Source: Macrocystis pyrifera
Taxonomy: Eukaryota; Sar; Phaeophyceae; Laminariales; Laminariaceae
NCBI GenBank assembly: GCA_031763025.1
Contig: JASSKH010000037.1
Span: 1,426,001 to 1,490,000, forward strand
Length of the DNA: 64,000 nucleotides
Reading direction: 5' to 3'
Both the position numbers and the translations under genes were made by a program. This document shows positions 5,009 to 63,669 of the stretch, piece after piece (the first letter of the stretch is position 1; each line of letters starts with the position of its first letter). Under the pieces are notes generated by a model. It saw nothing but the letters and a program-made list of their open reading frames with translations, searched no databases and was not told the origin of the DNA.

Positions 5009-5117
5009 TATTACGGGGGACCATAGTACACAGGACCGAATATTGTTAGTAAAAATAGGCAAATATATAGGTTTCGGTGTTTGCCGTAGGTCCTATATAC
5101 TATGGCCCCCCGTAATA
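5009..5117 (+). mobile_element. MITE family A, copy 2
   Basis: Inverted ends TTACGGGGGACCATAG / CTATGGCCCCCCGTAA flanked by TA. The interior is the family TATTGTTAGTAAAAATAGG block. It is non-coding and lies just downstream of the 2-oxoglutarate oxygenase gene (transcribed leftward). Confidence 0.9.
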
Positions 5118-5391
5118 ATTGCCTGTGCCGAAAACGTCCCACAACTACCTACCAGGTACTTGGTATGATATTTTATACCAGGTACAAATTATTGTTGTTG
5201 ATATGCGTTGTGCTGTTGTGAGTGATCTGAAACAAGCAACGCCGCAAAGGTGAGCTGTTGTGAGTGAGTTTTAAAACGAGCAACACCGCAAAGGTGGTGA
5301 ACATTCGTTGGCACTTTTACTTTTCCGTTCCATCTACCACACCCGTCCCAAAAAATTAAAAAAAAAAAGAAAAAAGTACACGTTTTCTTTC

Positions 5392-29865: not shown

Positions 29866-31380
29866 CTGAAGCCGTGGATGCACATACAGCGTACGAGTAC
29901 GAGGAATGTTGGGTACGACGTTGTATTTCAGGCAGGGGGTTAGGTCATGTTGTTACTACTGTTCCATTTGCCTTCCCGCAAATGTTCAGTGCAGAATTAT
30001 ACGAAGAACAAAAAATACTCGTGTCTACTTTGGGCGGTACGCAATACCAAACATGAAGACACAATGTACCAGGTATGTATCAAAAAGCACTTTTTGCACA
30101 TTTGCAAGCTCTTCTCTGGCGGCCGCAGGTCATTTCTCGCGCTACCGGTTGTGGGTTCGCAGGAGCCCCGTCCGTACGCTACCGCGCACGTTTGAGCCCC
30201 GGCCGGGCTTCGTGGTGCGTGATCTGAGCGTCCAAAGTCGCGCGAGCTGGCTCCTTTTTAGTTTTTAAGGAATGGCGTTCCGACCCGCCTAGCCGAGTAG
30301 GGTCGTGGAAACCCCTTACAAGTCGGGGGGGGGGGGGGGGGGGGGTCGCTCTGCAGCTATATCTGTTACAAGTACCACACCAGACCTCAAAACCTGTACA
30401 CTTTGATGCAGGCACGGTACAACAGCAGCCGCGCTTCCGCGTGTGTGTGACCGCGCGTGTGTGTGCCATTCTAGAATCCTATTAATAGGACCTTGATAGG
30501 ATGCTAGAGCAAGTGGTATGCACTAGGACTCAAAAAGCGGTGCGATTCCACTCCTTTTTTTCTGCGCTGTCTGCTGTCTGCCGCTGCTATGTAGTCGGGT
30601 TGTCACAGTCTTCTTTATACGCTGTGGCAGCCGTGGCGCAACAGCAGCAGCACTTCAACGTCCTCCCTTTGTGACAGCCACGATCGGTGCTTCTGTCTGT
30701 GTTTACGTGTGCTACTTTGAATACAATCTTGACGATCCCAACCCACATCGCTGAATTTCAAACGCACCTGCGCAGTAGACAGACAGCATCGAACCTCGCA
30801 TAGGCTCATGTACACATCCTAAGAAGGCCTGTGTTCCTCATTTTCAACTTATGACACCCCCGGGATTTCAAGTCAACCACAATGCCCAAGGAGAACCTGG
30901 TACTGGTACATGATACCACCACGTCCACTCAACCCCTTCTACCCTTCCCTGCGTGCACTTAGATGTTGTCGAAGACACCCACCGAGGGGCATTCCGCGCA
31001 AAATTGAAATTGAGACAGGAGTTTAAGGTCGGGGAATATTGAGTTTAGAGTCATACCAGTATACGAGTAAAACAGACATAGAGTAGTATTGAACCAACAT
31101 CACCTACCTACGTGTGCGTAACATGGTGCCGGTGATAAGGATGCACACTGACGAAAACGTTGGGCGCAACATTTTGTATTGGAGCTATACTTATCTTGAC
31201 CCCGATACGGACTGACGTTAGCCAGCTCCACGATCAACATCAAGTAAAACAAACCGAAAGCGCGGTCTCACCAACCGTTTAAGTTGGGGACCTCAAGCGA
31301 TATTAATAAACTTGTCTGTGATTGGCGCTACTTGGCAAAAATTTCGAGAATTTTCAAGATAAATCCCAACCAAAACGTGT
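29866..31380. other. No gene recognised; G21 at 30325-30345
   Basis: The N-terminal exons and promoter of the alpha-kinase should lie here but were not recognised. A 21-base G homopolymer sits at 30325-30345. Confidence 0.4.
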
Positions 31381-38282: not shown

Positions 38283-38392
38283 TATTACGGGGGTCCATAG
38301 TTAATAGGACCTACGGTATACATAAAAACCTATATATTTACCTATTTTTAATAACAATATTTGGTCCTATTTACTAGGGTCCCCCGTAAATA
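38283..38392 (-). mobile_element. MITE family A, copy 4
   Basis: Inverted ends TTACGGGGGTCCATAG / CTAGGGTCCCCCGTAA; the interior reads in reverse relative to copies 1-3 (ATAACAATATTTGG). It lies 100 bp right of the foldback element. Confidence 0.9.
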
Positions 38393-42006: not shown

Positions 42007-45000
42007 CTATCTACCACCCTTCGTCAGTTCGCTTCGCTCCATGCTCTTGATTTCTTCTCTTGGTGCTTCCGGCGACGCTCGTCTCTGATTCTGCATGAGC
42101 AGGCCACTACGAACACCGTCGATCCCGCTAGCTGAGCGACCCTGCTCGTTCTGAACGGCATAATTCGAGAACGATGCAGTGGCACCAAACCCTCGTGAAG
42201 GAGGAGGGGGGGCACCACCCGCTTCGATGCTAAGCTCCGCTGGGCCAAGGAGCGGCGAAACCCGGGTCCCAAGGTCCGTGTCTTGTTCCGTCAAACCCTG
42301 CGAGACACGGTGCGTGTGTTTGGTTTCTGGGCTGTCTCGTTGCTGAGGGGGACCTGATTCAAGTAGATGCCTTTGCGGTTTATAGGGCCAATACGTGGCC
42401 CTGATGAGTGTCCGCGTAAAACTGCACTCACACTTCGATGGACAAACTATATACTTGGAAGTAGCATGGGGTATTTTTTTGCAAGTTCCCCCGAAACGAC
42501 AAAGGTACAAAACGATAAAGGTACGAAACGATAAAAATACGAAACGATAAAAATACGAAACGATGAAGGTACGAAACACAATCATGGGTGAACCAATCGC
42601 TTGCGGCGACGCGACGATTGGCCATCTACCATATACCCCACCTCGAACCGCCAAGATTAATTTGTTTTTCACCATGTTTTCAATGCAACTTGGACGGAGT
42701 CCCAGCCTTATCCTAGAGCGTATATTTTCCCGACTACTTCGTTAGAAATTTCGGGCTATCGCACCTTCAGCCGAAGGTCCGCCCTTCTTGCCTCAGCCTC
42801 CTCCTGCCGAGACCGAAACCGCTCCTGCCGCTGCCTTTTCATCGCCTCCAGCTGGGCAATACTGCCTCTGTCGTCGAAAATAGAACTCGTGACTCGTCGG
42901 AGGGTGCCCTCGCCATCGAAAAAGAACGAATCTGGGCTGGAAATTTCGTCGATAATGGACTGGAGGCCTTTCGCCTGTATTGAAAAAAAAAAAAGTCGGC
43001 ACGCTAGTTACTGATGTGGCAGGCAAAGTGATGGCAGCCGCGCAGGAATGCTGTGGCAAAACATGCAGAAGAAGCCACAGTTACTGCAAAGCTTGACGCA
43101 GCACAACGTCCATTCGTATTTTCCATCCCATTTGTTTTTTTCGCCCTTTTTCCTCCTGCGCCCTCCTATATCTTAATAGTCGACCTCGGATGCGGGGTTA
43201 CAGAGTAGGCTCTTCTCCCTCCTCCTGACTACGGGTACGTGCCTTGCAATTTTATCGCGAGAAGACTTCACTCATCCTTTCCTTCCCTCGTCGACTCGAG
43301 GCGATCTTGCTCAGCGAGGACTAAGTGTTCCATGCTAGTAGGTTACACCTGCTATTACGGGGGACCATAGTAAATAGGACCTATGGTACATACAAAAACC
43401 TGTATATTCCCCTAATTTTACTGACAATATTGGGTCATATTTACTGTGGTCCCCGGTAATAGCGAACCATACTCGAGATATGGGTGCAGGGTCTACTGTA
43501 TGACCCCGGATCTGAGTTACGACTAGGAGGGAGAGAGAGAAAAAAGGAGTAAATATTATAAATGGGAAGGACAAAATTCAACAACTAGCAGAAAAGATCA
43601 TGCATCGACTTTGTGCTTTGTGATGTCGATTCCCCAGAGGTCACCTGAAACGCCATCGCTGGTCGATACCGGGCACTAAAAACGCTTCAATACATGGTCG
43701 TTTCCAAGGAGCCGTAGATCGTGCCTCGGTCTTTTGGGTATCGATATCCAAGTCAATACTTCAAATACGACTGATTGTCGGTGTTGTCGGGCAACTACGA
43801 TGATACCAATCGCTCGTTGTTAACCCTCCCAGAGCTGCACCCACGTTTTTTGGAGATTTCCGTGGCATTATTTCAACTGTGGGATAATTTGTTCAGTTCT
43901 AAACGGCTTAACGTACCAGCTTTTTGTGGCTTGCTCCGTGGATTTCGTCGGCCGTCACGAACACGTAGACCTTGCCGGTGTCTACTTGGATCGTGAAAGT
44001 CTTGCTCTTATCCGGGAGGGGCGTGGCGCGTGCCTGCATCGACTTTGTCGGGAAGTTTTGCTTCGGGTACCCCGTGTAGCAGCTCTGAGGAAACAAAAGG
44101 GAGACCGTTTTCGTGGTGGGTGCAGATGGTCGATAGTTGCCATCGCGTATGTACAACATGATACGCGATGGAAAACTAGACGGGTGGAGATTGTCTTCGT
44201 GATGCTATAGTACGCACCTGGTATGCGTTTCTTCTGCAGAAAGAAACGAATTCGCGGGTCTGGTTTCGGCAGAAAGGAGAACCAGCTTTCATGTTGTTGT
44301 GTTGTACTTTTTTGTGTGTTTTTGACGCATGTCGTGCCTTACACTCCACAGCAGCATCAACGCCATCAAACAAAACTAAATCGTACTCTTGCGAAGTCGC
44401 ACCTTGAGAGCGATGAGAGGAACACTCCCGGTTTTGACTTTTGCAACACCCCTGCTCCAGCAGAGGCAGTTCAATTTTCCGTTGGGCTTGAGGGTCACCT
44501 TAGATAAAGCTCCATCCTTTGGGCGGTAGATATGGACGACGAACCTGTCAGTAGCCAACGATGGCAAAAAAAAAGCAACACAACTCTGGCTTATGATGTA
44601 ACAACTCCGACACCCGGTGGTTGCGGAGCTCCCTCGAGAATAGTTGTATTCGGAGGCTATGCTGTTAACGAGTGACATATTTAAGGCAATCTTGTACGTA
44701 GCAATGCCTCTGACGAGTGCCTGATTTAAAGTGCATATTTAATGGACTAACTCCCCCTCCCCCAGCACGAAACCCCAGACAATATCACACGCGATTCGAA
44801 GTAGGATATAGCTCACCCTTCATGCGACTCGCCGAACTCCTCACGGCGCTTCGCGCTTTGTGTTTGATGCATGTCTGTCTGGTCGGTGAAAGCCCGACGT
44901 GTGCCGTCCCGGCATTGTATGGATGCGAGGAATTGTGGCCATAAGACTACGACCATGCATGACGCATGAATGCACTCCCCCCACAAAAATAAATGCTAAA

Positions 45001-46820: not shown

Positions 46821-46935
46821 TATTACGGGGGACCATAGTGAATAGGACCACATGTTGTTATTAATAGTAAAAAAATGTAAATATATAGGTTTTTATATAT
46901 ACCATAGGTCCTATTAACTATGGACCCCCGTAATA
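46821..46935 (+). mobile_element. MITE family A, copy 6, with TTAATA micro-insertion
   Basis: Inverted ends TTACGGGGGACCATAG / CTATGGACCCCCGTAA. Against its siblings (TTGTTAGTAAAA) it reads TTGTTATTAATAGTAAAA, an extra TTAATA at a TA. It starts 22 bases inside the intron following the donor at 46958. Confidence 0.9.
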
Positions 46936-46957
46936 GTGATCTTTCTCTCTTGCTCAC

Positions 46958-47562: not shown

Positions 47563-50500
47563 ATGAACCACTCCGGGCCTTCATTGAATCCATCGAATCA
47601 AGTGCTCAAAGTCGAACCAGGCACACCGCTTTCCCTCGAAGCAGAGCAATCGACAAATGGAACTGTGGCTGGAGGTACAGCTGCAGGAGGCTGGACCAAC
47701 CAGGGACTAGCGACTGGGTTGGGCATGACGATGGGAGGGGCGGGCGTGATGGGAGCAGCTTCAAAGCCGCCTCCTCCACTGGAGGCAGTGAAGACAAGGA
47801 AGAAGGGACTCTCGGTGGGTTCAGCGGCTGCTGTGCCTGTGACGGCGTCTCTGCTATCTTGATGCAACGAAAACAACCAGACACCGCCTTACGTTCCGCA
47901 GAAGGTCCTCGGTATGCATGTTGCGGCCTTTTAGCAATGCAGGCGGACAGGATAGCGATGAAGGGTGAAGCCGTGTTCCCTTGAGTCCTTCGTGGTTCCT
48001 GGACGCGTGCCATTTGTGTATGTACAGCAGCACAGCAGCAGTAGTGATATTCATTTATTCCAGGTTCAGTTTGAATTCAGATCACACCGCGTCTTTTTTC
48101 CCAACCGCGATCGCCGTTCAACGTTCAAACGAGGCAACGAGAAATGCTGGGCAGGCCGGCCTCCCACCTCCCACAGCAGTACGTACAGCTGCTGTGTGCA
48201 TTCCACCGCAGTTTGCATTTCTCGCTGTGCAATCCAATGACCACATAATGCTGTACGAGGTGCCATGTTGTGTTTGTCAATTGCCCAACATATGATAGGG
48301 AGCTCTCGTGAGGAAGGTATGACATACCTGCGCGGGCACCAGCAAGATATCAGATATCAGGTACCAGGTATCAGATATGACCTACCTACAGCAGTACTGT
48401 AAACTGTAAATAAACATCAAAGATGTCAGCAGACAGCACTTTCACCCGTGACAGACAGCAACTTTGCCTTGCCTTGACTGACTGACGCCAAACTATTAGG
48501 TTTTAGTGTGGAACACTCTGCCCTGCACCCTTGACAGCGCACATTTTGTGTGGCTTGACATGTCTCCTGACACCTTCGGTAAACACCGTACCTGCTATAT
48601 ATTACTTTACAGACCTCGCACAGATATTCCATTCTCACTTGATGATCTAGATCTTTCAAGGCAGATCTGCTCCCGGTCGTGTATGATCCAGCTCGTGTTG
48701 CCGGGTGGGACCCGTATAACCTGCATGATCTGGTGCTTGTTTTCTGGATTGGATCTGTACTAGGCAGGTCCTGAAAAATCTCTCACTAAGGCTAGTGAGG
48801 AACTTGATCTGTTGTAGATACAGTAGATAGATCATGATCTGTCAGAAGCGTGAACCTTTATCTCTGGCAGGTGCCCTATATCGCGACACGATTCCAGTCT
48901 GTTCACGCCGCTTGTTGCTACGTGCCGTACACCTCCAGGTTGCCTGTCCCATAGCCTACGGATCCCTTGCTTTCCTCCTGGAAAGGAAGAAGCAGAGCGA
49001 ATTCGTCACGCACAGATGGACTCGTGAGTGCGCTATTTATTTGCTGTATGAAATAGGCACTTCGGGCGTGTGGGGTTGTCGTACATGGTTGGTGCCGAAG
49101 CGGCATCGCCGGAAGCATGGGGAGAAGAAGACCCATCGGTACGCAGGTAGAGCGTGTGCAGCCTCGCTTACAGCGTGTGCTCTCATGCACGCTTGAAATG
49201 CTGCGTGCCTTATCTCGTTGTCCTTCGATTAATGATCCGTGCCTGTCCCGCCCGTGCTTTCTCCGGCAGTGTTTGTGCGAGGACCTAACGGGGAGGACAT
49301 ATCGTACTTCGTATCCAAGGTGGTGTTCACGCTGCATCCCAGCTTCGCGGAAGCCACTAGGGGTCAGTCGCAAGACAGCAGCATCGATATCGTATTTTCT
49401 CTGACCACTCGATCACGGCCAATCTCCACCCCGGTCTGGCTTTCTGGACTGCCTTTGAGTTGTACATATCTTAAGAGAGTCCGAGCGAAGGCACCCTTTG
49501 AAACATAAATCCTGGTTCCGTTCACCTCCCGCCTTCTTCCGATTTTGCAAAATCCGCGTTGTTCGCTTGCAATTGTTTCACACCTTGGACAGATCATCTA
49601 CAGTTCACAATCTAGATCTTTCAGGGCAGATAGATAGATAGATAGATAGATTCCTGATCTGTATGATCTGTATGATCATAGATCATGTTGTCGGGTGGGA
49701 GCCGTGTAGTGTGCATGATCTAGCGCACATTTCCTGGGTTGGACATGTACTGCAGCAGATCCTGCACGGCATCTTATATCGGCAGGTTAGGATCTAGATT
49801 ATCTATCTGTAGATGATGATCTATCTGATCTGTAGATGATCTATTCGAGCTGTTAATTTTTTGTGTTTGCTGCGATCGTGTGATGTTTGGCTGCCGTTGT
49901 GTGGCCTGCGTGGGGTGCACACTTTTGGGAGTGTGCTGGTTATGCCTGTTGCGTCTGAGCACGACGGCCGCCCCGCTGTCCCGATCTTTCATTTGTCGAC
50001 ACTGCCGCCCGTGTTGCAGGGTGCCCGTGACGCTCCCTGTTCTCTGCTGAGTAGCGGACCGCCCTACAGTAGTATTGACCATGCAATGCCGTCATGGTAG
50101 GGATTTATGCAGGCTGTACTAGCGATGGACAGGGCGTAGAGTCGTGGGTGCGACTTTTCTAGGCGAAACCGTCTATTTTGTTCTCTACCGGCAGCCAAGC
50201 GGCGATAGTGCACTGCTACTGTAGCCATGTTGTTGGTGTGGTGTGGGTCATGGTGATGGTGTTGATGTCGGTGTCGGTGTTGCCGTTAGTGCTGGTGTTG
50301 GTGCTGGGGTTGGTGTTACTGTCACTGTTGCTGTTGTTCTTGGCGTCGGTGTTCGCAGTTTTATCCATCGCCGTAATCGAGTCCACGGTCTCAAGACAGC
50401 CTCCATTATTTTCTGGTCGGGTGGCAAATTCTGCTTTCAAGTCAGCACGTACGCTTCGGGCGTGTCTTATTTCACGTTCCCTGATGTTGGAACTCTGTCA

Positions 50501-51484
50501 TACCGATAATTGGTCCATCCTACTGCCTCGCCGCGGTTTCGCTCCTTGCCTGCGCTTTCGCCTCCTTCCAGCTAATCACTAGAACAAATTTATTGTCATG
50601 AACACCAGATAACACTGCTGCAAACACTCCATAGCACTGATGTGAACACGCAACAGCACTGCTGCTGTAAACACTCAATAGCACATGTGGCAATCACTAT
50701 TTATATTTACCCTTGTGCGGTAAAGACTATTCGTCCTTGTACTGTTGATGCACTACATATAACTTTTTACGGGGGAACATACCAGGTAGTAGATAGGACC
50801 AAATATTGTTGGTACAAATATAAAAATATACCTGGTACAGGTTTTTTGTGTGTACCGTAGGTCCTATTTACTATGGTCCCCGTGATATCAACACTGTCAG
50901 CACTACGTGCATAACGCTACATACTGTTAACTCTATTCGCCCTTGTTTGCACCGTTGCCGCAGAGATAAAGTCGCCGCCTTTCGAAGTGACCGAAATGGG
51001 GTGGGGAGAGTTCGAGGCGAAGATGACGATGCACTTCAAAGACCCCAATGAGAAGCCCGTCGATGTGCTGCACCAGCTCCGTCTCTACCACGACCCCGCA
51101 ACGGGAACAACCCAACCCAAGAAGGTAAGGCCGGAAATATTGTGCCCGTTTGGAATCGGACATGAACATGAAGCGTATGTTATATTCTCGGCCAGAGCGG
51201 TACTAGTTGTAGTGTGGTACTATTAATAGTTGCGAATGGCCTCGGCTGCGAGCATGTGCATTTTTTTTTTTTGTGTTTATTTCCTTGGGCATTCTTCCAC
51301 TCCAGAGTTTTTGGAGCCTGTCTCCACAGACACTAGGTGACGGCGGTTAACTCATGCGAGAACTACCGCTGTACCAACAGCAAGCACGAAAACAAAAACA
51401 GCAACAACAAAGCGAAAACAACAATAGCGCCCACAGCAACAGCAACAAAAAAAACAGCAACAACAACACAGGCAACAACAACAA

Positions 51485-51515
<31 letters not shown>

Positions 51516-53256
51516 AATAACTTGCTATTGATAATAAAACTATCCATATCTTATTCCAAGCAAACTGTCTTTGAAACGTGAGTGCAGTTCGAGGCTGGAT
51601 GCAGTCCATGGTGGACATGGGGGCCGCACGACGGTCGGGAAGAAGGACGTGTAGGCTAGCGTTGCTCAGATGGGTGTTCATGGCGCCGTTTCAGGGGAAA
51701 CTAACCTTACATGACCAGCACTGTACAGGGCGCAAGTCACTCACGGCAAGGATTTCTCGATGCCGTTCGTAAGCCCTCGTACACGCCGGTACCGTACGCG
51801 GAGGAGGGTTTCATCAACCTTGTCCCGGATTTTTTTCACTGAATGGTTCACAAATCTGACAGATGAGATAGATCAGACCCCCGTTTCATGATCTAGATAC
51901 CTCAGGGAAGATTGATTCCTGGTCTGTATGATCTAGCTCGTGGTGCCACGCGGGATACCGTATAATCTTCATGACATAAGCACGTATTTCCTGTGTTGGA
52001 TCTATACTACGCGGATGCTGCATAACGTATCATGACGGCAGGTTAGGATCTACCGTTTATGATCTAGATCGTGACCTGCCCGACCTGTAAAATGGTTGAA
52101 AAATTACCGACTGTAGTCCCCGACCCTAACCCCGACCGCCTGGAAAAATTATTGAGGATATTTTAGTGTGAAGAGTTAGTGTGGACTACGAACAATTTTG
52201 TCGAAGCTTGAGCTGCTTTGTAGTCGTAATTTGTTTTTGCGTTCCGTCAGCCTGGGCTATCGTCAGGTTCACGTCACGTCAGGTTCCGGTGTGCTGCGGT
52301 TGGAGTGTGAGCGGTTTTAGAACCTTCGTGTTACCGGTATATGCTGTTTTGGAGGCTTAGCCGGGGGCTTCGGAGATGGGTTCGTGCTGTGTGCATAGAG
52401 TGGTTTCGTCCGCAGTGTTCCATCCACCCTGTTAAATGGTGTACGCTTGCCGAGGGGGCACGTACGTGGGGGCCAACTTGGTCCCGCAAAAGGCTCGGGG
52501 TTTCCATACGCCGGGATAGCGAGAGGGTGGTGGGATTTATTTATATACGTAGCCAGCAGCCGAATGTGCGAAGGGTGTAGATTCAAGGGTGTATTCGCAT
52601 GTTCAGGAGAGCACCCCCCAAGCCATTGTAAAATCAAACAGCGACCAAGGAAAGGAAGCTCATGGACATTGTCGGTTTTTATCCCCCCATCTGTCCCTGC
52701 CCCCCCCCCCCCTCCCCCCGCCCATACCCCCCCTCCGGCATGAATCATAGGCGGTGGTGGCGGAATTCTACGATGAGGTGGTTTTCACCGACCCGTATGA
52801 AGAATTCTACAACACCCTCATGCAGGGGCAAAAACTGCTGCCCCAGCGAAAGCACGAACACCAGGAGCACTTCTCCACCTTTTCGGACGGTGATACGCGC
52901 AGCGATTGGCGGCCGCGAGAGAATGGGTTCACAACCAACTGCGAGGTGAGATAAGACACAACCATCAGCATCGAGAAACGTTCAGTAGCATTCGAGATCG
53001 TGCGCAGGTGTATCGTATGTACTGCACCAGCAGGAAAGCAAAAAACGCTGTTGTTGAGCTAAGACGTTGCGCACATGAAATGAACCGGCAACTAACCCCC
53101 CGCATTTTCTTTTTTGCCTGACGATTGTTTGTAACGGCAGAGACAAAGGACAAGATACGCAAGGCGGACATGGATATAGCCCAAATGAAGGCCAGTGCTA
53201 CACCCACGGCCTCCAGGGGCCAGGGTCGACCCGCCCCCGCGCAATCACGCCGATGA
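47563..53256 (+). CDS. YEATS-domain chromatin reader, GAS41/YAF9 type, complete
   Basis: Six exons: 47563-47814, 48939-49023, 49270-49362, 50964-51124, 52751-52945, 53143-53256. Phases 0,1,1,0,0 agree at every join, giving 299 codons and TGA. After a Gly/Ala-rich N-terminal extension of about 84 residues come VACPIAYGSLAFLLERK, THRWTLFVRGPNGED, SYFVSKVVFTLHPSF, SPPFEVTEMGWGEFEAKM, HFKDPNEKPVDVLHQLRLY and VVAEFYDEVVFTDP, the complete YEATS fold. The His of THRWT and the WGEF loop would contribute to the acyl-lysine pocket. A short helix, TKDKIRKADMDIAQMKAS, ends the protein like the GAS41/YAF9 coiled coil. Such proteins read acylated histone H3 within SWR1/NuA4-type (SRCAP/TIP60) complexes in the nucleus. 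The last exon has tandem acceptors (CAGAG); phase demands the second. Introns hold MITE copy 7, three GATC-family repeats and a CAA tract. TAF14 or AF9 relatives are less likely from the C-terminus. Confidence 0.93.
48640..48845 (+). repeat. GATC-rich repeat E, copy 1
   Basis: Shares with copies 2-4 the blocks GATCTAGATCTTTCARGGCA, TGTATGATCYAGCTCGTG, GCCGGGTGGGA, GGATTGGATCTGTAC and a GATCATGATCTG end. About 200-240 bp, non-coding. It ends just before YEATS exon 2. Confidence 0.8.
49608..49848 (+). repeat. GATC-rich repeat E, copy 2, with GATA expansion
   Basis: Same block order as copy 1. A GATA run (about 49628-49651) has expanded inside it. It lies in YEATS intron 3. Confidence 0.8.
50766..50887 (+). 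mobile_element. MITE family A, copy 7, with two 7-bp micro-insertions
   Basis: A family member of about 122 bp whose ends are worn. Against siblings it carries CCAGGTA inserted after ACATA (50782-50788) and CCTGGTA inserted after ATATA (50831-50837). Both sit at a TA and both create the palindromic-looking words TACCAGGTA and TACCTGGTA. It ends 76 bases before YEATS exon 4. Confidence 0.9.
51395..51520 (+). repeat. CAA/CAG trinucleotide tract
   Basis: Imperfect CAA repeat with scattered CAG, in the intron between YEATS exons 4 and 5. It accounts for the Asn/Gln/Thr-rich and Leu/Cys-rich open frames on either strand. Confidence 0.9.
51862..52095 (+). repeat. GATC-rich repeat E, copy 3
   Basis: Starts AGATCAGACCCCCGTTTCAT like copy 4 and runs through ATGATCTAGCTCGTGGTGCC and GGCAGGTTAGGATCTA. 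In the intron between YEATS exons 4 and 5. Confidence 0.8.
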
Positions 53257-53494
53257 TATTAGGGGGACCTCGTGCATTAATAATTAATAGTGGTATGGTG
53301 TTTGTTATCGGTCGGGGCTGCGGCGGTAACGGCTTTTACATAAATCCGGGGGAGTTGCTTTTGCTCGTACGGTCGGGATATGGTGTTTGTTTTTCAGGGT
53401 GATTGGCTGGAAGCCCTCTTCAGTTTGTGTTGCGGCGGGGCATATTAATCAGAACCCACCTTGAGCCTGAAAAACGTGCTGTCCCCCTATGTTC
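53257..53494. other. 3' flank of YEATS gene
   Basis: No further exon is seen. It probably includes the 3' untranslated region; no clear polyadenylation signal was identified. Confidence 0.4.
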
Positions 53495-53534
53495 ACGAAG
53501 CATATTCGGTCCTGATAACTATGCTCCCCCGTGA
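53495..53534. mobile_element. MITE family A, remnant of one end
   Basis: ATTCGGTCCTGATAACTATG followed by CTCCCCCGTGA matches only the right end of the family. The rest is missing. Confidence 0.5.
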
Positions 53535-53752
53535 CTTTACGAGTCGAAGGCTGATCGATGGTGTTACGCTTCTTTCATGACAGTTCGGCAGATGGGCCTG
53601 CGTTAGCTGTACGGTAGTGTACGGTACCTGTAGAATCCAATCAAAGGGACGGACGGTGGCTGCTGAGACTACGCGGAAATCGAAAACATGAAATATACAA
53701 GGATGATGGCATTCTCTTGTTTCAGTATGATCCCAGTAGTACAGCAGTAGGT

Positions 53753-53868
53753 AACCCCTTTTGCCCCTTGTAGGGCCGCAGACCCGTTTATAGGACAATC
53801 CAGTCAAATTCCAAGTAATTTTCCCCCCAAACGGGACTGCAGTACTAAAAGGGTTTAGGGACCCGGTC
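53753..53868 (+). mobile_element. MITE family F, copy 1
   Basis: Inverted ends AACCCCTTTTGCCCCTTGTA.. and ..GGACTGCAGTACTAAAAGGG around a short interior (CCAGTCAAATTCCAAGTAAT). It is related to 56352-56444 and 58401-58500. The left end is more decayed than the right. Confidence 0.7.
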
Positions 53869-53879
53869 CATACGGGACC

Positions 53880-54420
53880 TCAATTTTTTGCACCGTTTTT
53901 TTTTTTTCCCAGTTTCAAGGGACAACACTCGCTCAAGGGAAGATCGGCTAGGTCCCTCGGGTTGGGCTAGGTCTGATAAGGGGCGTTTGGTATATAGAGG
54001 GGATCCCTCCGCCCGACACACTGCGCAGGGATGCCGTGAAGGGGGTCACCTACTGTACCCAATTCCTGCACAGAGTGGTCGCGGTCTTGCACGATTGCAA
54101 GCAAATACAAGGAGGCGCAGGCGCGCTCTTCGGCAAAGGTCTTCCGCTGAACAGCCGTTCGATCCGGCTGGGAGGTGCCCCCGCACAAGTCTCGCCAAGA
54201 GCCAGCAGGCTATATACGCGCGGCGTTAGATTCGTTGACCCCGTTCACACAACAATTTGCGGATACATCGAGGAATTCAATGTTGGAAAGCTCTCGTGGG
54301 AGTTTTATGCACGTCGTCCCTTCGGATACGAGACGGTGGAGACGGGGCGGCCATCTGCCCGGTGGCCCACCAAAACGTCACGTAGCAGGTACCTGACGGT
54401 ACAGTGGTGTTAAATTAATA
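53880..54420 (+). other. Unrecognised open frame at 54036-54413
   Basis: A 125-codon plus-strand frame (with RLYTRGVRFVDPVHTTICGY) has mixed, protein-like composition. It has no recognised family, and a competing minus-strand frame overlaps its left part. It may be an exon of an unknown gene or a transposon fragment; I cannot decide. Confidence 0.25.
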
Positions 54421-54555
54421 GGTGAACAGTGGCAATCAAACCTTACTGTAGTGCACGTGAGCGCAAGTTGGGAGGACTACCAAACACTCGCCACCACACT
54501 CACGGCACGCGGCACGCGAGCGCAACATGGGCGGTGTACCAAACACTCCGGACAC

Positions 54556-54776
54556 GGGACATATCAGATATAGATCAGACCCCCGCTTCATGACCCAGAT
54601 CTTTCTGAACAGATATATCCCTGATCTGTGTGGTCTAGCTAATATCGCCGGGTGAAAAGTATATTCTGTACGATCTATCACCTGTTCCCGGGTAGGGATC
54701 TGTACCATGCAGATCCTGCACGTCCCAGGCGGGTTAGGATCTAAATGATCTACAGCCGTAGATCGTGATCAGTACG
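54556..54776 (+). repeat. GATC-rich repeat E, copy 4
   Basis: Starts AGATCAGACCCCCGCTTCAT-like and keeps the block order (CTGATCTGTGTGGTCTAGCT, GGGATCTGTACCATGCAGAT, GGTTAGGATCTAAATGATC). Most diverged of the four. Confidence 0.75.
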
Positions 54777-56351
54777 ATATTGAGACACTTGCCACGAAAC
54801 TACGGTATACTTCGTATGAACGCAACTTGGATTGGACGGTCTACCGCCCTCTGGCTGCACCATCAGCACCCCACCCTGATTCACAAGTTCTAACTTTTTT
54901 TTTTTCTTCTTCTCCCGCCTCCAAATTTATTTCCCACACGCAATGAAAAGCCTGGCAGCATATTTTCAGAACTATGATATTGTACCGCACACGCTTCCCT
55001 ATTTCGAATTCTCGCCGAAACTCCCGTAAAACCTGGTGCGTACGTAAGACATTTTTCTTGTTGCTACTAATTTCCGAGACTGGTGAAAGGCTTGCCCCAC
55101 AGCAGACCCCGCCTAATGGGTTGAGAATATAGGGGGCGGTGGGGGGGGGCAAAACCGCGACACTCAGAAAAATAATGCATACGTAACAAACAGATCGATC
55201 GGATCACAACCTTCGTAAAATATCTATGATTGGTACGCCCTAAAGCTCTACGGTAGCTAAAATCACCCGCTTTTAACATACACACTTTTTCATCGAACCG
55301 GAACCACAACAGTTGGTAGTATAGAATGTAGCGCAACTTGAAAACTTCGGTACTTGGCTATTTTCTTGGCCGAATTTTCATCGATCGCGGTCCGCGTGGA
55401 ACTTGTCTCTCGACTATCGCCCCGACACTCAACGAGTACGATTGGCCGCGCAAAGTCCTCTCGAACACCCGCTACTGTAATACCAGGTACAAGGTACCGC
55501 CTTCCTACAACCTCACCCCCCCCCCCTTCGACCAACATCAACACGTTGTTGGCATTCGATCCGCACGCGTCAAGAGAGACTTCTTTAAAACTTGAACACG
55601 CTCCCGGAAACGATCCGCACGCATCAAAGCGAAAATAAACTACGCGAATACCGCTCCAGGCGTCCCATGAAAACTCCCGCCCCTCTCGAGCCCCCTCACC
55701 CCCCCCCCCCGCCCAAAAGGGATGCGTGGTCAATGGTCGAACGACTAAGGCAAACAAAAAAGTACGCCTCCTCCCCCCCTCCGTCCCGGCATTGTAGGGA
55801 TGCGAGGGTCTATGGTCATACGAGTACGGTCCTGCATGATATCAAGTACACCCCCCCCCCGCGCGCCGCCCCTCCCCCCCCCCTGCCCACCAGTGGATGG
55901 CTGGGATGACGCGCCACTGCCCCCCCCCCCCCCCCCCCCCACCAAACTTACCGACGTACCCCAGCGGGAGGGTCTAGTCAAGCGCGTGCATCTGTGTGCG
56001 ACAAATAAAAAAAAACTAGAAGTGTACCTACCGTCCCGCAGGAGGTTAAAAAAACACCCCGTATGGGAGTCCGCGGCCCACTCGTCTGGTATCGTATCGT
56101 ACCCACGCCCTATCTACTCCGTCTGAATTCCGCGGACCGTAGCCACCCCTCGTACTATCTTCACCTTCTCCTTCCTGGCCGCCTCAAGTTCACGTCTTTG
56201 TGCTGCCTGCAGCAGCGGCGCACCGGCAGCGGCAGCGGCAGAGGCAGGAAACACGATAGTACGAGGTACACCAGGGGAAACAAGGGTCAATTCAGTAATT
56301 TTATGGGCCAGTGGGTGAGAAGATGCAACAGCAGTAGGAAACACTAGTTGG
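54777..56351. other. Low-complexity, C-tract-rich DNA; repeat D fragment
   Basis: Long C runs lie at 55838-55880 and 55919-55940. A partial repeat D (CCGTCCCGGCATTGTAGGGA) is at 55780-55858. No exon is recognised; Pro-rich and Gly-rich open frames follow the C/G tracts. Confidence 0.5.
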
Positions 56352-56444
56352 ACCCTTTTAGGACTGCAGTCCCGTTTTGGGGACAAATCAGTCAAAATCT
56401 GAGCAATGTCTCCCCAAAACGGGACTGCAGTGTTCGAAGGGTTA
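56352..56444 (+). mobile_element. MITE family F, copy 2
   Basis: About 93 bp, with inverted ends CCCTTTTAGGACTGCAGTCC and CGGGACTGCAGTGTTCGAAG around GGGGACAAATCAGTC. Best preserved inverted core: GGACTGCAGTCCCGTTTTGG. A decayed relative may lie at 56625-56815. Confidence 0.8.
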
Positions 56445-58400
56445 AGCGAGACTCTAGGGAAGCGTTTCTACTAGGCAAGACTCTAATTTGTTTGAGGCGG
56501 GGTTGTTCTACACTAAACCAGTATTAAAAAAATAATTTCCAATATATACCTTGCATATGTTTCGGGCAATAGTAGAGCCAATTCCTTCTGAACGATTTCT
56601 CGCAACCCTTTCATCACTACAAAAAACCACACTAATTCCAAGTAATTTCCCCCCAAAAACGTCGCAACAAACACTACAACACAGAGTACAGCAGTTCTGA
56701 AGGAGTGAAAAGTGATACGACTGCAAAAAAAAAAATCCTGATTCCAAGCACTGTTGTGTCCAGAAAGAATGGTTGCAAGTTCGAAACGGCTTTCAACCCT
56801 TTTAGTGCTGCACTGCATAGAAACATACCAGGCATACCACTCTGTCCCTTAATATAAGCAACTTTTTTGTTGGAATACTAGTGTAAAAAACGTCCTTACA
56901 TTCAGGGACAGATATATTGGTAGAGGGTACTGGTAGTGGGTATCCCGACATATGAGAGGGCACGCGCAGCGCGAAAAGAATAGTGCAGCAGGCCAAATCA
57001 GCTGGACCCGCCTACACTAAAGCCACGTATTTCCCGTTGCTGTGGATAAGAGAGAACGTTAGCCAACAGAGAAGCGTCGTCGGCCTGTGCCACACCTCTC
57101 GTAAGTCGGGGTACCCACTGCTGTGTCTGTAATTCGTCCCCACGTAGGGAGCGCAGCCCTTAATGGGCTAAGCGCTGTCGCCTCCTGTAAGGCTGGCCGC
57201 TGCTCCCTCCCAGAGGGGACACTTTATTTCATCACCCATGTTCAGTGTTTGCATGCGGCTCCGAGAATAATCCGGGGTCATACATGATGAAACGTGAGAA
57301 TGCGACATACGAGTGAGTGCCAGGTACATACTGGAGCTCCCTACGAGTCCTCGCGATACGAGCAGTCATCGCGCGACCAAAAAAAAGTTCGCGATTCGGA
57401 GCATTACGAACGCTCGTGGAATCAAGAAGGGGAAGCTTGAGCTTCCGCAGATTGTCGCGAGCAGTCGGTGTGGGCCCAGACGGCACGGTCGGTGCCTTCG
57501 GTCGCCCGCTCTACTCCGTGCGTGTGTTGCGTGTGCACACCAAAAACGAGTACAGCCATCAGTCTACTGCTGCTGTTGTACTACCACCACTATCGCACAA
57601 CGGCCTGATCTCGCGAAAAAACAAGCAGCGTTCGAGGCCAGCCAGCGCCTACGGTGAGTACATGCATGCCCGACAAGTTGCAATTTGTACACAAGTACCA
57701 GTACACCAGCTATTACTACGTAACCTATGTGGCGCGTCTGCTATCTCGGCTATCGGACAGAATGGTGATCAACCTCCCATATTTACCGTTGTGTACCGGT
57801 ATTCATTTACGCAAATTTCCTGGAACTATGTAGCTCAATACTGCCGAGACATCTCGCCAATTTCGAGCTGAATAGTCCCAGAAGCTTGGCGTAATATGAT
57901 ACCGGTAAGAAGTCAACAAGGGAGGATGGTCACCATTCTGTCCGACAGCAGACGCGCCACAGCAACAGAGGATACACGCAGTACACTACGACAGTACCAA
58001 CAGGTACAGCAGTACAGGACACCTGCAAAGAAAACCAGCAAAAAGCAAGGCATGCCGAGAATTACAGAAATTTAGGAAATTCGGATGCGTCATTACACTG
58101 CGAGTTAGTGTAGAACTCACCCATTCCCAAATAAGAAATCCAGCCTGGATCGGTTTTCATGTTTCTTACTTTTGGGTGCTCTTTACTACTAGTATCTGGT
58201 ATGTTGTATGCCACAAAGGCAACGGCTGTGCGCGGGTCACGCCACGCCATCAAGTGCTTGGGTGCCACTCGCGGCCTGCGAGTCAAGTGCTGGCAGTGCT
58301 GGTAGTATTGGCAGTGCTGGATGAGGGGTGTCACGACATGGGTATAAAACTACTACTGCTGCCGCACTTTTGGGCCAAAATGTTTCCGACTGATCTGATC
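56445..58400. other. No gene recognised; orphan donor at 57653
   Basis: A good donor context (CTACG/GTGAGT) at about 57653 follows a frame reading RPDLAKKQAAFEASQRLR, but no matching acceptor or partner exon was found. The 184-codon frame at 57317-57871 has no family. Confidence 0.35.
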
Positions 58401-58500
58401 GGGGCTTTAGTACCGCAGTCCCGATTTGGGGACAAACTATTACTAGTCTAATTATAAGTGATTTGTCCCCAAAACGGGACTGCGGGACTAAAAGGGTTAA
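58401..58500 (+). mobile_element. MITE family F, copy 3
   Basis: Inverted ends GGCTTTAGTACCGCAGTCCC and GGGACTGCGGGACTAAAAGG around a divergent centre (ACTATTACTAGTCTAATTAT). About 100 bp, non-coding. Confidence 0.8.
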
Positions 58501-58599
58501 CCCAATATCATCGGAAAACCGTTATTAGTGTTGAACTATCAGGTATATTTTTCGTGATATATCTATACACCTGCATATAGTCTTTGCCCTAACCCTAAG

Positions 58600-58642
58600 G
58601 GTAGAAAGAATGGTTGAATGTGAAGAACGCACGCACATTTAG
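58600..58642 (+). repeat. Short LINE 3'-end remnant
   Basis: GGTAGAAAGAATGGTTGAATGTGAAGAACGCACGCACATTTA matches, in parts of under 20 bases, the terminal block of the LINE 3' untranslated region seen at 61970-62010 and 21401-21440. A doubled CCCTAA lies just before it. Confidence 0.5.
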
Positions 58643-59059
58643 GCTTTCGGAATGCACTGATTGATCATCGGGTTGCACTTTTAGCGTGTCTCGACATCAG
58701 TTTTTGGATGACTCGGCAATGGCTTAGTGATGACTTTCTGTAGTAGTGATGTCTCACTAATAGTATAGAGCTCCTCGAGTCAGGAGCTCTGAAAAATTGG
58801 ACGCTAGCAAGCGTCGCATAGAGCGACACAAGGACGTCCAACTTGCTATAAATACGAAACATCGCTCCTTGGGTCACAACGTCAACATGATCAACCATAC
58901 ACCGTCATCAACACTACTTTAATATATTATACCTGCTGTTTACTACAAGCAGTATATAAAAGTTGAAAATACACCTCAACTACTTGTCAGATAGAAAAAT
59001 TCGTCGAAAAACTCACATTTTCAGTGATGATGATATTAATACTAATAGTACTGAACTAC

Positions 59060-59168
59060 TATTACGGAGGGCCATAGTAAATAGGACCAAATATTGTTAG
59101 TAAAAAAAGGAAAAAATATAGTTTTTTGTGTGTACCGCAGGTCCTATTTACTATGGTCCCCCGTAATA
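59060..59168 (+). mobile_element. MITE family A, copy 8
   Basis: Inverted ends TTACGGAGGGCCATAG / CTATGGTCCCCCGTAA flanked by TA, with the usual interior. It is set in AT-rich DNA with many ACTATTAATAG words. Confidence 0.9.
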
Positions 59169-59582
59169 TTAACAATACCAAGTACTATTAATAGTAATAT
59201 TATATTAACAAAACCAAGATCATACAAAGCGTGTTAGCAGGTATACGAGACACCGATTACGGGTTTTTTGTGACCTCGTCTAGGACACATAGGTACAGCA
59301 GCAGTAGGTCGGTGACTTGCCTAGTTTTACAGCCAACTGGGTAGTCAGTCTACGTACAGCAGCATAATTAATTTCCATGCATAAATCATGAAAAAGGAGA
59401 GTATGGCTATTGGTGGTTGCTAATGCGGCAGCATATTTACAACTGCTGCGCTCAAGAAATGGTGAAAGGTTCCAAGAAATTTATGATAATTTTCTAGAAG
59501 GGTTCGGTGGTCGTAACATCCGTCTAAAAAATCAAGTAAAACCCGGCTTCAGCCAGCTCGAAAGGGGTCCCTATCTTTCGGC

Positions 59583-61260
59583 GCCGTGTACATGAAGCTG
59601 CTTACAATTAGCCGCACTTGCGACGACAGCATGCTGGCTCGCGTGCGCACGGATGACGGCGAGCACTCGGAATGGTTTGAAGGCACGCAGGGGCTGTCAC
59701 AAGGCTGCGCGCTATCACCGTCACTGTTCAACATGTTCTTCGCTGCTGCGTTACACGTCGTACTGGCACGCTTCAGCAAAGAAAGACGAAGACATCGTAA
59801 GGCATTTGGTTCATGATGCTGGAGTAGTCGGAACAGAGGAGCAGGAGCCGTTGGCATGCGTGCAAAGAGCTGTATGGGGCATGTTGTACGCCTGTGATGC
59901 AGGAATTTTCTCGGCGTCGGCTGAAGGGCTCGCAAAAATGATGGCAAGTCATCGTGACTGTCTTCGAAGCAGCAGGCCTCATGGTATCGGAAAAGGAGGA
60001 GATCATCCTTCTACGAACACCAGACCAGACAACTCTCGCCCCACCGCTCGTCATCGAAGCAGCAGGCCGGAGGTATAAACAGACGGCCGTGCCAAAACCA
60101 ACGAAGCCTTGTGACCCTCTGCAGGTAGAAGCAGCAGGCCAGAGTTATAAACAGACGGCCCAGGTCTTTCGCCTAGGCGGCATTATCCGCGAAAACGCTG
60201 ACTTCTCGCTCGAAATCGACCGGCTGATCCGTCTCATGCGGGCATGCCTCAAACGGTTCGGCCCGCAGCTGTATGATAATAGGACGACCGCCCCTCTTAG
60301 TCTGAAAGTCCGAATGCTGAAGGCCGAGGTGATTGAGACGCTGCTGTACGGGTGTGTGACGTGGACCCTCAGAGCGGAGCACTTTGCCAAGTTTCGAACG
60401 GCCCACCACCAAGTCCTCTTGCGAGTCATTGACTTCCAGCGCCGACTTTGCGCTGACCACGCCACCCTCTCGTACGCGAAGGCCCTCAAGATGATACGTT
60501 TCGAGAGCATCGAAACGATCATAAGTAAACGGCGGCTCTTTTTCGCGGGGGCCGTGGCACGGCAAAGCAAGGCGCGATAACCTAGTCGGGTAAAGTTCGG
60601 GACGATGGCTGGCGGGGAGAACCCGAGACCTGGTGGACAGTTAAATACTTGACATAGATGCATAGTCGAAGACCTTGGAGAGTTCCGAACCACCGAAGGG
60701 TCAACGGAACAATTATCCTTGGTGTTTGGAGTTGAGACCGCGCTGTAGTCCACTGCAGCAAAAAATGTGGGAAAGTGGTATCGGGGGGTCCTTGAAGCAA
60801 TCGAACAGATCATGGTGAGGTGGCACGAGGATGAGGCACAGCTGAGACAGCGCCGGGAATCCGCCGTGGGCGGTGCCCAAGGGAATGGGGGGGGGGGGGG
60901 GGGGAACACGAAGGAATGGAAGGAAACCCAACCAAGGGAACGCGTGGAGGGGGGGCAACCGGAGGAGTAGAAGGGAAACCGCGGTGGAGGAAAGTAGGAA
61001 GGAGACGGCAAACAGGGTACAAGGCACCAGGGCGACTAAGAAGTAGAACATGTCTATGCTACTCGTGCCGCCAATTGCTGCATCTGGTTCGAACGCGATA
61101 TTCATTTGTCTTATTTTTCATTTTGCGCTTGATATTCCATGATGTTCTGTAGATTACTTTATCTTTCTTTCTTCTTGTCCGTACGAAAGGAGTCGTGTGG
61201 TGTGGGTGGATGACGAGCCTGCTTTGCTTGTTTCGTATTGTCTGATGCATCCTCTCCGGG
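59583..61260 (+). mobile_element. Second 5'-truncated LINE copy, disrupted
   Basis: Same family as 21401-23362, opposite orientation. It reads MLARVRTDDGEHSEWF, GLSQGCALSPSLFN, then the catalytic box as YACDAG instead of YADDAG. There are frame changes after about 59790 and again near 59950. A duplicated EAAGRRYKQT...EAAGQSYKQT segment is followed by RLGGIIRENADFSLEIDRLI, the thumb and LLRVIDFQRR to a stop at 60580. The untranslated tail holds a G run (60889-60903). The copy cannot make active enzyme: a catalytic Asp is lost and the frame is broken in at least two places. Confidence 0.9.
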
Positions 61261-61269
61261 GGTGGGGCA

Positions 61270-61670
61270 TAGTTGACGAACGCAGGACGGAGACGGAGAC
61301 GGTAGACAGGGTAGCAAGGTACCAGAGAGCCTAGTAGGGAGAACCTGGCTATGCTACTCGTACCACAAACTGCTGCAGCTACCTGGAGGGTGCTTTGTGC
61401 TTCGGTTTGCTGTTGTTTTCTATTGGTTCTTAGTCTCACTCTGTTTACAAGTAGAGTGGTGTTTATTTTCTTTAGCACGCTTTTTTCAAGTGTTTGCCAC
61501 ATTCCGTGCGCGGGGAGGCATTACAATTTTTTCTCTTTCTTTCACTTTTCCTCTTCCTTTTTCTCTTGGATTTGTTTCTTTGCGTTCTGTTTTCTCGTTT
61601 GTATGTTTCCTTTCGTTACCTCACTTTCATAGAATGTGTATGTCGTGCCGTATTCAGTGTTGTTGTCGTT
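61270..61670 (+). mobile_element. Third LINE 3'-end fragment
   Basis: GACAGGGTAGCAAGGTACCA and GCTACTCGTACCACAAACTG match the 3' untranslated part of both other copies (about 61010-61080 and 21990-22050). Only the non-coding 3' part is present, so this is a severely truncated insertion next to copy two. Confidence 0.75.
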
Positions 61671-61675
61671 TTCTT

Positions 61676-61990
61676 AACATTAAACCGTTCTTTCTACCCG
61701 TCGACATCCAGCACAACCAGTGTCCGTGCCGATTCTTCAATCCTAGAGAGATGGTACAAGTTCTGTGGTCACAAAACTACGCCACAGAGATACTACAGCA
61801 GTCCGTTGCCACGTATGCAATGCAATGCCATGTCATGGAATTGCGTTGTCTACTCTGCTTACTGCACAACAATGTAGTAACTCTGTGGCGTAGTTTTGTG
61901 ACCACAGAACTTGTAATTCTCTAGTTTTGGAGAATCGGCACGGACACTGGTTGTGCTGGATGTTGACGGGTAGAAAGATCAGTTCAATGT
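61676..61990. repeat. Hairpin: inverted copies of LINE terminal sequence
   Basis: Left arm 61676-61795 and right arm about 61870-61990 are inverted copies (TCTTTCTACCCGTCGACATC against GATGTTGACGGGTAGAAAGA; ACAAGTTCTGTGGTCACAAA against its complement) around a loop of about 75 bp. The right arm matches the 3' terminus of the LINE at 21401-21545 in sense direction. An independent foldback element is the alternative. Confidence 0.8.
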
Positions 61991-62164
61991 GAAAAGCACA
62001 AACACATTAATCGCTTTCGCTCGTAATATCGCTGGCAATAGACCATTGTGTAGTACATACAGCAGTATACCGAGGGCATATACAGATGTCATATAACAAT
62101 ACAAAATCACCCCCTGGACAACAGACAATGGCCATTGCAATAGCAATAAAATATGGCGCGATGG

Positions 62165-63545
62165 ACGTGCCGTGCCCTTTGCCGTCGGTAGTGTCTATCG
62201 ATTTACTGTTAATAATACTTCCTCAGTCTATTGTCGCCGGTGGTGGCTATCGATTGGCCTACTTCCCAACACGTTGTCGTCGGTAGTAGCTACTGATTGA
62301 CTATATCCCCACTGCTGTATTATGTCACCGGTAGTGGCTATCGACTGGGTGTTCCACAATCTGCTGTGGCTGGCGATGTCTATCGATGGATCACATCCCC
62401 AATCTATTGTCACCGACAATGTCCATCGATGAATACTCCCCACAATCTATTGTGGCAGCAATGTCCATCGATGGATCACATCCCCATTCTACTGTCACCG
62501 ACAACGTCCATCGGTGGATACTCTCCACAATCTACTGAGGCAGCGATGTCTATCGCTGAAGCACATCCCCAACCTATTGTCACCGACAACGTCCATCGGT
62601 GGGCACGGCTCACCACCTACTACTATGTCGGCAATGTAAATCGATCGACACACGCACAACGTACTCTGCTGAGCACAGCAAGGTATCTATTGCGTGACAA
62701 CAGCAATATAATATATCGCGACGACGACATATATAGTAAAAATAACGAGTGCATGGTGTATAATATCTGAAAACAACTTGACACGATAATGAGTGTATAG
62801 CACGGTATATCGTGACCACGTCTTCTCTGATAGGCTGATAGGCCAACCAATGAAACAGGAAGGATGGGCGTTTCGATAAATAGTTGATAAGATCTCAAGC
62901 GTTTACATAAACGTGGTTTTCGATCCTGGACAACAGGCAATGGCCGCTGCAGCGCTGCAGCAATAATGGGGATATACTATTGCTGCAGCGCTGCAGCAAT
63001 AATGGGGATATACTGCTGTGGGGCATTGGACGCGAACATTTTGCTGTCGGCAACGTCTTATCTATTGTTACCGTCCCCAATACGTTGTGACTGGCAATGG
63101 GCATCGATGAACAGACTTCTCAATCTATTGCGGGTGGCAACGGCCAGCGATGGACACGCTGCACAACCTATTGTCGTTAGCAATATACCAGGTACTTCGT
63201 ATATCGATAGATTCCCCCCCCGTCTGCTGTCACTGCCAATGTATATATATCAAGAGTTTTTCCCCTCGTCTATTGTCGCTGGCAACATATATCGACAGAT
63301 TTTCCCCCCGCCTATTGAGGCTGGCGATATCTGTCGTTACATTCTTCCTTGGCTCATTGCCGCTGGAAATTTATATCGATACATTTCTGCATCGTCTATT
63401 GCCGCTGGCGATATCTATCGATGGATTTTACTCTCGCCTTTGGGCGCTGACCATTTCTATCCCACTGATTCTCCTCTGGTCTATTGTCGCTGGTAATATC
63501 TGATCGATGGATTTTTCCCTCGTCTATTATCGCTGGCAATAGACC
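62165..63545 (+). repeat. 42-43-bp minisatellite with two-unit higher order
   Basis: Units start near (C/T)ATCGATGGAT and end CGACAATGTC or GCAGCAATGTC. In 62375-62600 two unit types alternate: CACATCCCCAATCTATTGTC then ACTCCCCACAATCTATTGTG. A more diverged block runs on from about 63040 (ATCTATCGATGGATTTTACT type). 42 bp equals 14 codons, so open frames carry 14-residue repeats such as IYRQIFPPPIEAGD. No host protein is recognised. Non-repeat DNA at about 62680-62930 divides the array. Confidence 0.85.
62940..63018 (+). repeat. Palindromic 37-bp tandem pair in the minisatellite
   Basis: GCTGCAGCGCTGCAGCAATA followed by ATGGGGATATACT occurs twice in a row. Each unit holds the perfect palindrome CTGCAGCGCTGCAG, so the pair can form cruciform-like hairpins. 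Confidence 0.85.
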
Positions 63546-63557
63546 ACTGCTGTGTAC

Positions 63558-63669
63558 TATATACGGGGGTCCATAGTTAACGGGACCAAATTTTGTTAGT
63601 AAAAATAGGTAAATATATAGGATTTTTATGTATACCATAGGTCCTATGAACTATGGACCCCCGTAAATA
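63558..63669 (+). mobile_element. MITE family A, copy 9, with paralogous empty site
   Basis: Ends TACGGGGGTCCATAG / CTATGGACCCCCGTA in a TA-rich flank. The flanks (CGCTGGCAATAGACCA on the left, GTATACCGGGGGCATATAC on the right) match 62030-62085, where the element is absent. It lies about 52 bases inside the intron after the donor at 63722. Confidence 0.9.

Follow-up and report, generated by a model that had tools for sequence, protein, structure and literature searches.

Why should the same few short words, each bounded by TA dinucleotides, recur far above expectation in the DNA of a brown alga? The question is raised by a 64,000-nt stretch of the kelp Macrocystis pyrifera (assembly GCA_031763025.1, contig JASSKH010000037.1, positions 1,426,001 to 1,490,000; hereafter the window), in which words such as TACCWGGTA lie scattered among unrelated sequence and inside copies of a miniature inverted-repeat transposable element (MITE). 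Our alignments give a direct answer to part of the question: the words come about when a few bases are inserted precisely at a TA. We consider it very probable that they are end-joining excision footprints of TA-targeting cut-and-paste elements of the Tc1/mariner-like kind. The phenomenon is thus ordinary in kind; it is unusual in its scale and in the 5-nt core of its main word, for which no source is visible.

The excess itself is large. TACCWGGTA, written out as TACCAGGTA or TACCTGGTA, occurs 12 times in the window, against a mean of 0.34 and a largest value of 2 in 100 dinucleotide shuffles; a first-pass annotation had listed about 12 occurrences, and all 12 of its positions are exact. The same annotation had put TACTCGTA/TACGAGTA (CTCG core) at about 12 with 2 expected, and TACAGCAGTA/TACTGCTGTA (CAGCAG core) at about 8 with 0.1 expected. 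Both excesses hold, with the counts corrected to 13 (1.95-2.41 under order-2 and order-3 Markov models) and 9 (0.11 in shuffles), respectively. TATTAATA (TTAA core) is found 11 times, against 0.67 in shuffles. The further claim, that such words exceed their normal frequency across the genome, was borne out for TACCWGGTA by a count over 537,376,219 bases in 223 contigs, which returned 121,279 places, or about one per 4.4 kb, versus 2,421 for the reversed word used as a control. The assembly is described in PMC10498591 as 537 Mb in 35 scaffolds and 188 contigs, with a GC content of 50.37%. In 130 kb taken from elsewhere in the genome, TACCTGGTA and its complement occur 18 times against 1.09 expected, with 3 of the 18 falling in L011, a stretch that is a near-copy of part of another, L007, and that was excluded from several of the word counts. 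When the 9-mers of a 234-kb sample are ranked by distinct flanks only, with low-complexity words excluded, TACCWGGTA is the most enriched complex word (29 vs 2.47), followed by TATTAATAG, TACTGCTGT, TGCTGCTGT and TACGAGTAC. TACWGTA is also raised (49 vs 27.7).

Some of this abundance reflects copying. Recurring spacings among the first 100 genome-wide rows for TACCWGGTA indicate that part of the 121,279 places were copied along with larger repeats, so this total is not the number of independent events. The distinct-flank rate (29 in 224 kb) would extrapolate to about 70,000 genome-wide or, without the window, which contributes 12 of the 29, to about 57,000. These spacings, together with three words shared by L007 and L011 inside a large repeat, are what would be seen if the words were simply left over from dispersed repeats containing them by chance. 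We find this scarcely credible, and for the excess as such it is already largely refuted: the distinct-flank counts given above retain the enrichment, and a comparison of the 30 nt downstream found no pair behind the 70 occurrences of TACCAGG and a single pair, a local duplication, behind the 67 of TACCTGG.

The origin of the words can be read from repeats whose copies with and without a word can be aligned, above all from the MITE, an element of about 109 nt with 10 copies in the window and 9 in the sample (nhmmer and alignment). In the alignment of these 19 copies, internal insertions of at least 2 nt lie at TA by eye, with cores CCAGG, CCTGG, TTAA, CTG and TG, the exception being the diverged copy at 53430, with a 3-nt AAG at its edge. 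The individual gains that the first-pass annotation had described are present: CCAGGTA and CCTGGTA at two TA sites of MITE copy 7 (the script aligner split the second event), and TTAATA at a TA of copy 6. In the minisatellite, the 14-nt gain of CCAGGTA plus CTTCGTA at a TA is likewise apparent by eye, the array from 63180 reading GCAATATA, then the inserted CCAGGTACTTCGTA, then TATCGATAG, where the unit at 63283 reads GCAACATATATCGACAG.

A larger set confirmed that aligned MITE copies show insertions at TA, as had been claimed. It combined 77 stretches (the first-listed ends from a pattern search, not picked for insertions), the 19 copies above and 6 from three further contigs (L018-L020), 102 in all, of which 69 were independent once 33 with identical flanks had been removed. 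These 69 copies hold 28 insertions of at least 2 nt, classed by script as 13 TA-type, 3 homopolymer and 12 other. Among the 20 of at least 4 nt, 12 have the form TA-core-TA by script and 17 by eye, compared with 3.4% TA-type when the same script is given random genomic pieces at random places; without the window copies, from which the idea originally came, the figures are 10 and 14 of 17. The five by-eye additions are cases in which the aligner had split an event or a base had changed (the second insertion in L080; one in L009, one base over; window position 50831; L020_2780, with 4 bases unexplained; and one in L090), and the three that are not TA-type lie in L026, L051 and L090 (CACA). The cores of the 17 are CCWGG (7), TTAA (3), CA/TG (2) and one each of CG, CTGG, TCG, AGG and CTG, and by eye the seven CCWGG gains are spread over five or more different TA sites. 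A TCG scar is present in just one (L033) of eight paralogs of a larger repeat with the same flanks.

These gains bear on the proposal that TACCWGGTA is a functional palindromic motif, for instance a protein-binding site, whose excess would come from use under selection and not from excision. The word is indeed palindromic and the top complex 9-mer of the sample, it sometimes occurs in close pairs (5150/5176 and 50780/50829), and its flanks are mostly unrelated. Selection on a motif would not, however, lead us to expect a 7-nt gain at TA at several MITE sites and in a minisatellite unit, nor other cores inserted in the same way, and we judge this explanation very unlikely. One-base mutants of TACCAGGTA are also in excess (80 vs 43.2), as in decaying neutral words; this agrees with old, decaying scars, although the ratio of 1.85 stays below the 99% point of random TA-N5-TA words (2.0), having passed the 95% point (1.75).

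The dependence on TA extends to the sample at large. CCWGG cores lie within TA..TA in 29 of 454 cases and in no more than 6 within any of the 15 other self-complementary flank pairs; the corresponding figures are 19 and at most 5 for TTAA, and 16 and at most 7 for CAGCAG/CTGCTG. Among the 64 self-complementary trinucleotide frames, TAC..GTA exceeds baseline for all gap lengths 0-6 (1.2-1.9 times), and the only other frame raised throughout is the AT-only TAT..ATA. Beyond the TA, flanking bases differ between cores: A is scarce around CCWGG words (5% vs 20%), C is abundant around CTCG and CAGCAG words (58% and 50% vs 31%) and G is abundant around CWG words (52% vs 20%), as expected from several elements with different transposases.

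An element of the proposed kind would insert at TA and duplicate it, as do Tc1/mariner elements and Stowaway-type MITEs. On its leaving, the transposase would make its cuts a few bases inward of both termini, and after sealing by end joining the site would retain TA on either side of a short remnant of each terminus. CCAGG and CCTGG could then consist of three bases from one end of a TA-CCA...TGG-TA element and two from the other; alternatively, 5-nt overhangs might have annealed to themselves, with repair of the A:A mismatch producing the A/T ambiguity. When each scar is modelled as n bases of one end and m of the other, no three-base end out of 64 scores better than CCA, apart from TAT, which reflects AT microsatellites, and CCT comes next. 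The CCA series CCG, CCGG, CCAG, CCAGG and CCATGG stands above expectation, the CCAGG count driving much of the score, and CCA+GG or CC+TGG yields CCAGG or CCTGG. From this we infer an element with TA-CCA...TGG-TA ends as the source of CCWGG, which may be extinct, rare or diverged.

Several results weigh against excision as the origin of the words. Tc1/mariner overhangs are 2-3 nt long, so that a core of 5 nt would require either the 3+2 arrangement or another cut. CAGCAG is not of end-fragment form with fragments of up to 3 nt, and CAG as an end scores 2.8, below the median of 4.8. Non-MITE repeats show only 5 TA-type events among 53 insertions in all-versus-all indels, none of them CCWGG, with a script that misplaces split events and called 3 of 6 MITE events TA-type. 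The 98%-identical paralogs L007 and L011 (stretches of 2.5 and 3.2 kb) carry no new TA scar relative to one another, and the three TTAA gains in MITEs share a single site and could have been inherited from one event. No TA-flanked element with terminal inverted repeats (TIRs) and CCWGG, CCA or CAGCAG ends was found in 234-253 kb, where a search for ends matching the words returned the MITE and fold-back repeats, and PF13358 (DDE_3) gave 0 matches genome-wide, with three candidates scored and a control that rang in 3 of 14 genomes. The first-pass inference of several TA-targeting elements with distinct scars therefore stands on the side of the core-specific flanks and falls short on that of the elements themselves: the search for matching termini that it called for yielded none for CCWGG or CAGCAG and one candidate, with 9 of 12 bases matching between its TIRs, for CTCG.

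That candidate, at 5178-6781 of L016, may be a TA-flanked TIR element with CTCG ends followed by 12 further bases of which 9 match, a level of agreement with a chance of about 0.02; it is a possible source of TACTCGTA. A second stretch, at 19057-19273 (213 nt, CAGATCACACAGAT ends), was set beside a GATC-rich repeat family with unclear ends and dropped as a source element.

The missing source element (234-253 kb) and DDE_3 transposase, along with the self-complementary general form TAC..GTA, would suit an origin of the words in a host process acting at TA without any transposon, such as templated end joining, quasi-palindrome correction or short-patch slippage. Repair alone would hardly account for core-specific flanks or for one exact core of 5 nt recurring at 121,279 places, and, except for AT-only frames, no other self-complementary trinucleotide frame is comparably raised. 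We regard a host process as quite unlikely, and retain excision as the explanation. A bolder proposal, offered tentatively and somewhat doubtful as a whole, is that kelps carried, and perhaps still carry, an undescribed TA-targeting family whose excision leaves CCWGG as a 5-nt core, perhaps through a cut longer than 2-3 nt, and whose activity was high enough to make its scars the most over-represented complex 9-mer of the sampled DNA and to let them outlast the element itself.

For the TTAA core, a source is at hand. There is good support for reading TATTAATA as the 109-nt MITE's own footprint, with TT from one end and AA from the other: TA + TT + AA + TA is what two bases left from each MITE end would give. 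The outer flanks also agree. Successive bases outside the MITE's TA are G in 69%, T in 44% and A in 57% of cases, and outside TATTAATA in 52%, 50% and 61%, compared with 20%, 26% and 26% after TA in general. Equal flanks would, however, be seen with a preformed target just as well. TATTAATA could be the target site of the MITE, the element proper being CGGGGG...CCCCCG and the duplicated TA lying inside TAT-TA-ATA; the MITE ends indeed read TATTA, CGGGGG...CCCCCG, TAATA, so that the empty site would be the same 8-mer. We think this unlikely, since three MITE copies gained TTAATA at a plain TA (one site) and, more weakly, three sibling repeats lack TATTAATA at the site of a MITE in L020, although that site is complex. 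This alternative concerns TATTAATA only and is compatible with an excision origin of the other words. The L020 copy (2413-2521) sits inside a GATC-rich dispersed repeat (2348-2658), beside two TTAA-containing stretches, and its site has a complex history.

The MITE has the marks of a Tc1/mariner-type element: it is short and of high copy number, has a TIR of TTACGGGGG.CCATAGT, and is flanked by a TA duplication. Its end pattern has 52,601 exact matches genome-wide, both ends counted. Of 57 independent copies (85 minus 28 with identical flanks), 48 have TA on either side and 9 have one side altered; for most copies (the 77 stretches) a TA at one end was demanded by the search pattern, so this test is partly built in and counts for less. 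Stowaway elements have ends of the CTCCCTC type, from which TTACGGGGG differs, and the MITE is therefore not filed as Stowaway. A piggyBac type, which duplicates TTAA and excises seamlessly, does not fit, as the MITE duplication reads TA and extra bases remain. The MITE pattern has no match in a viral contig collection. L018-L020, contigs filed in bacterial metagenome-assembled genomes, carry the kelp MITE, and L018 and L020 also other repeats of the window; they are probably host contamination.

How do the kelp words compare with known systems? In Paramecium, excision of internal eliminated sequences also removes TA-bounded elements from the genome and leaves a single TA with no extra bases, whereas extra bases stay at the kelp sites. 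Tc1/mariner elements, including Sleeping Beauty, share the TA target and its duplication; their overhangs of 2-3 nt, 3 nt in Sleeping Beauty, are sealed by end joining to give a C(A/T)GTA footprint (PMC7827188; PMC3878927), and TACWGTA is raised in the kelp too. The main kelp core differs in being 5 nt long and in that neither the element nor a DDE_3 transposase was found. Grass Stowaway MITEs are likewise short, non-coding TIR elements with a TA duplication, whose footprints retain 1-4 bp from the element's termini beside TA, such as TACTC...AGTA (PMC1925063; PMC4561436), but the number of kelp scar words is far above the single-locus cases described in these sources. Literature searches, at the level of titles and abstract openings, returned no report of genome-wide footprint words in brown algae. 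Published footprints, as far as these sources go, have been studied per single locus or vector, while the kelp scar word can be counted across a whole genome, so that one can read directly how many excisions took place, which targets were chosen and how long ago, even for a vanished element. Short TA-bounded indels in this kelp should not be taken for slippage products by default and, should the cut of the CCWGG source prove to be 5 nt long, it would add a cut geometry to those of TA-targeting transposons.

Table 1. Scar-type words and MITE copies in the window (positions from its first nucleotide).
Feature	Position	Strand	Basis
TACCAGGTA scar-type word	5150..5158	none	word count
TACCAGGTA scar-type word	5176..5184	none	word count
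TACCTGGTA scar-type word	6190..6198	none	word count
TACCTGGTA scar-type word	19839..19847	none	word count
TACCAGGTA scar-type word	24107..24115	none	word count
TACCTGGTA scar-type word	24340..24348	none	word count
TACCAGGTA scar-type word	30067..30075	none	word count
TATTAATA, TTAATA gained at TA of MITE copy 6	46859..46866	none	alignment and word count
TACCAGGTA within run of TA-bounded words (~48350-48400)	48362..48370	none	
TACCAGGTA, CCAGGTA gained at TA of MITE copy 7	50780..50788	none	comparison with 18 siblings without the gain
TACCTGGTA, CCTGGTA gained at second TA of MITE copy 7	50829..50837	none	alignment
TACCAGGTA scar-type word	55481..55489	none	word count
TACAGCAGTA word, one of 9 in window	62058..62067	+	word count
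TACCAGGTA plus CTTCGTA, minisatellite	63186..63201 (gain 63187-63201)	none	by eye
MITE copy, TA both sides, ends TTACTGGGG...CCCCCGTAA	2107..2214	+	alignment
MITE copy	5010..5117	+	alignment
MITE copy	6065..6172	+	alignment
MITE copy	38283..38389	-	alignment
MITE copy	43353..43460	-	alignment
MITE copy 6	46822..46935 (stretch 46813-46943)	+	alignment
MITE copy 7, two CCWGG insertions	50766..50887 (stretch 50757-50895)	+	nhmmer and alignment
Diverged MITE copy	53430..53533	-	nhmmer E 1.1e-7
MITE copy flanked by TATTAATA at 59034 and 59186	59061..59168	+	alignment and word count
MITE copy	63562..63666	+	alignment

Around one of the tabulated words, at 48350-48400, TA-bounded 5-nt words stand in a row (TATCAGA, TATCAGG, TACCAGG, TATCAGA, TATGACC and a closing TA), followed by TACCTACAGCAGTACTGTA; the run looks like scars nested in one another or like a 7-nt tandem repeat that has degenerated. 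The GATC-rich dispersed repeat, about 230 nt long, is present at 48621-48850, 49589-49834, 51861-52089 and 54563-54783, as well as in L009, L007 and L020. A diverged inverted repeat pair occupies 21981-23129 and 59843-61379, one member having a reverse-transcriptase domain (PF00078), and is also matched in L011. The window gave no match in either Rfam or tRNA searches. On the minus strand, 26286-27329 is an open reading frame (ORF) with an alpha-kinase domain (PF02816), near an ORF at 28493-29707 with a weak von Willebrand A match. The ORF at 14100-15221 encodes a VPS36-like protein whose best named relative, 90% identical, is from Laminaria digitata, three other entries being closer.

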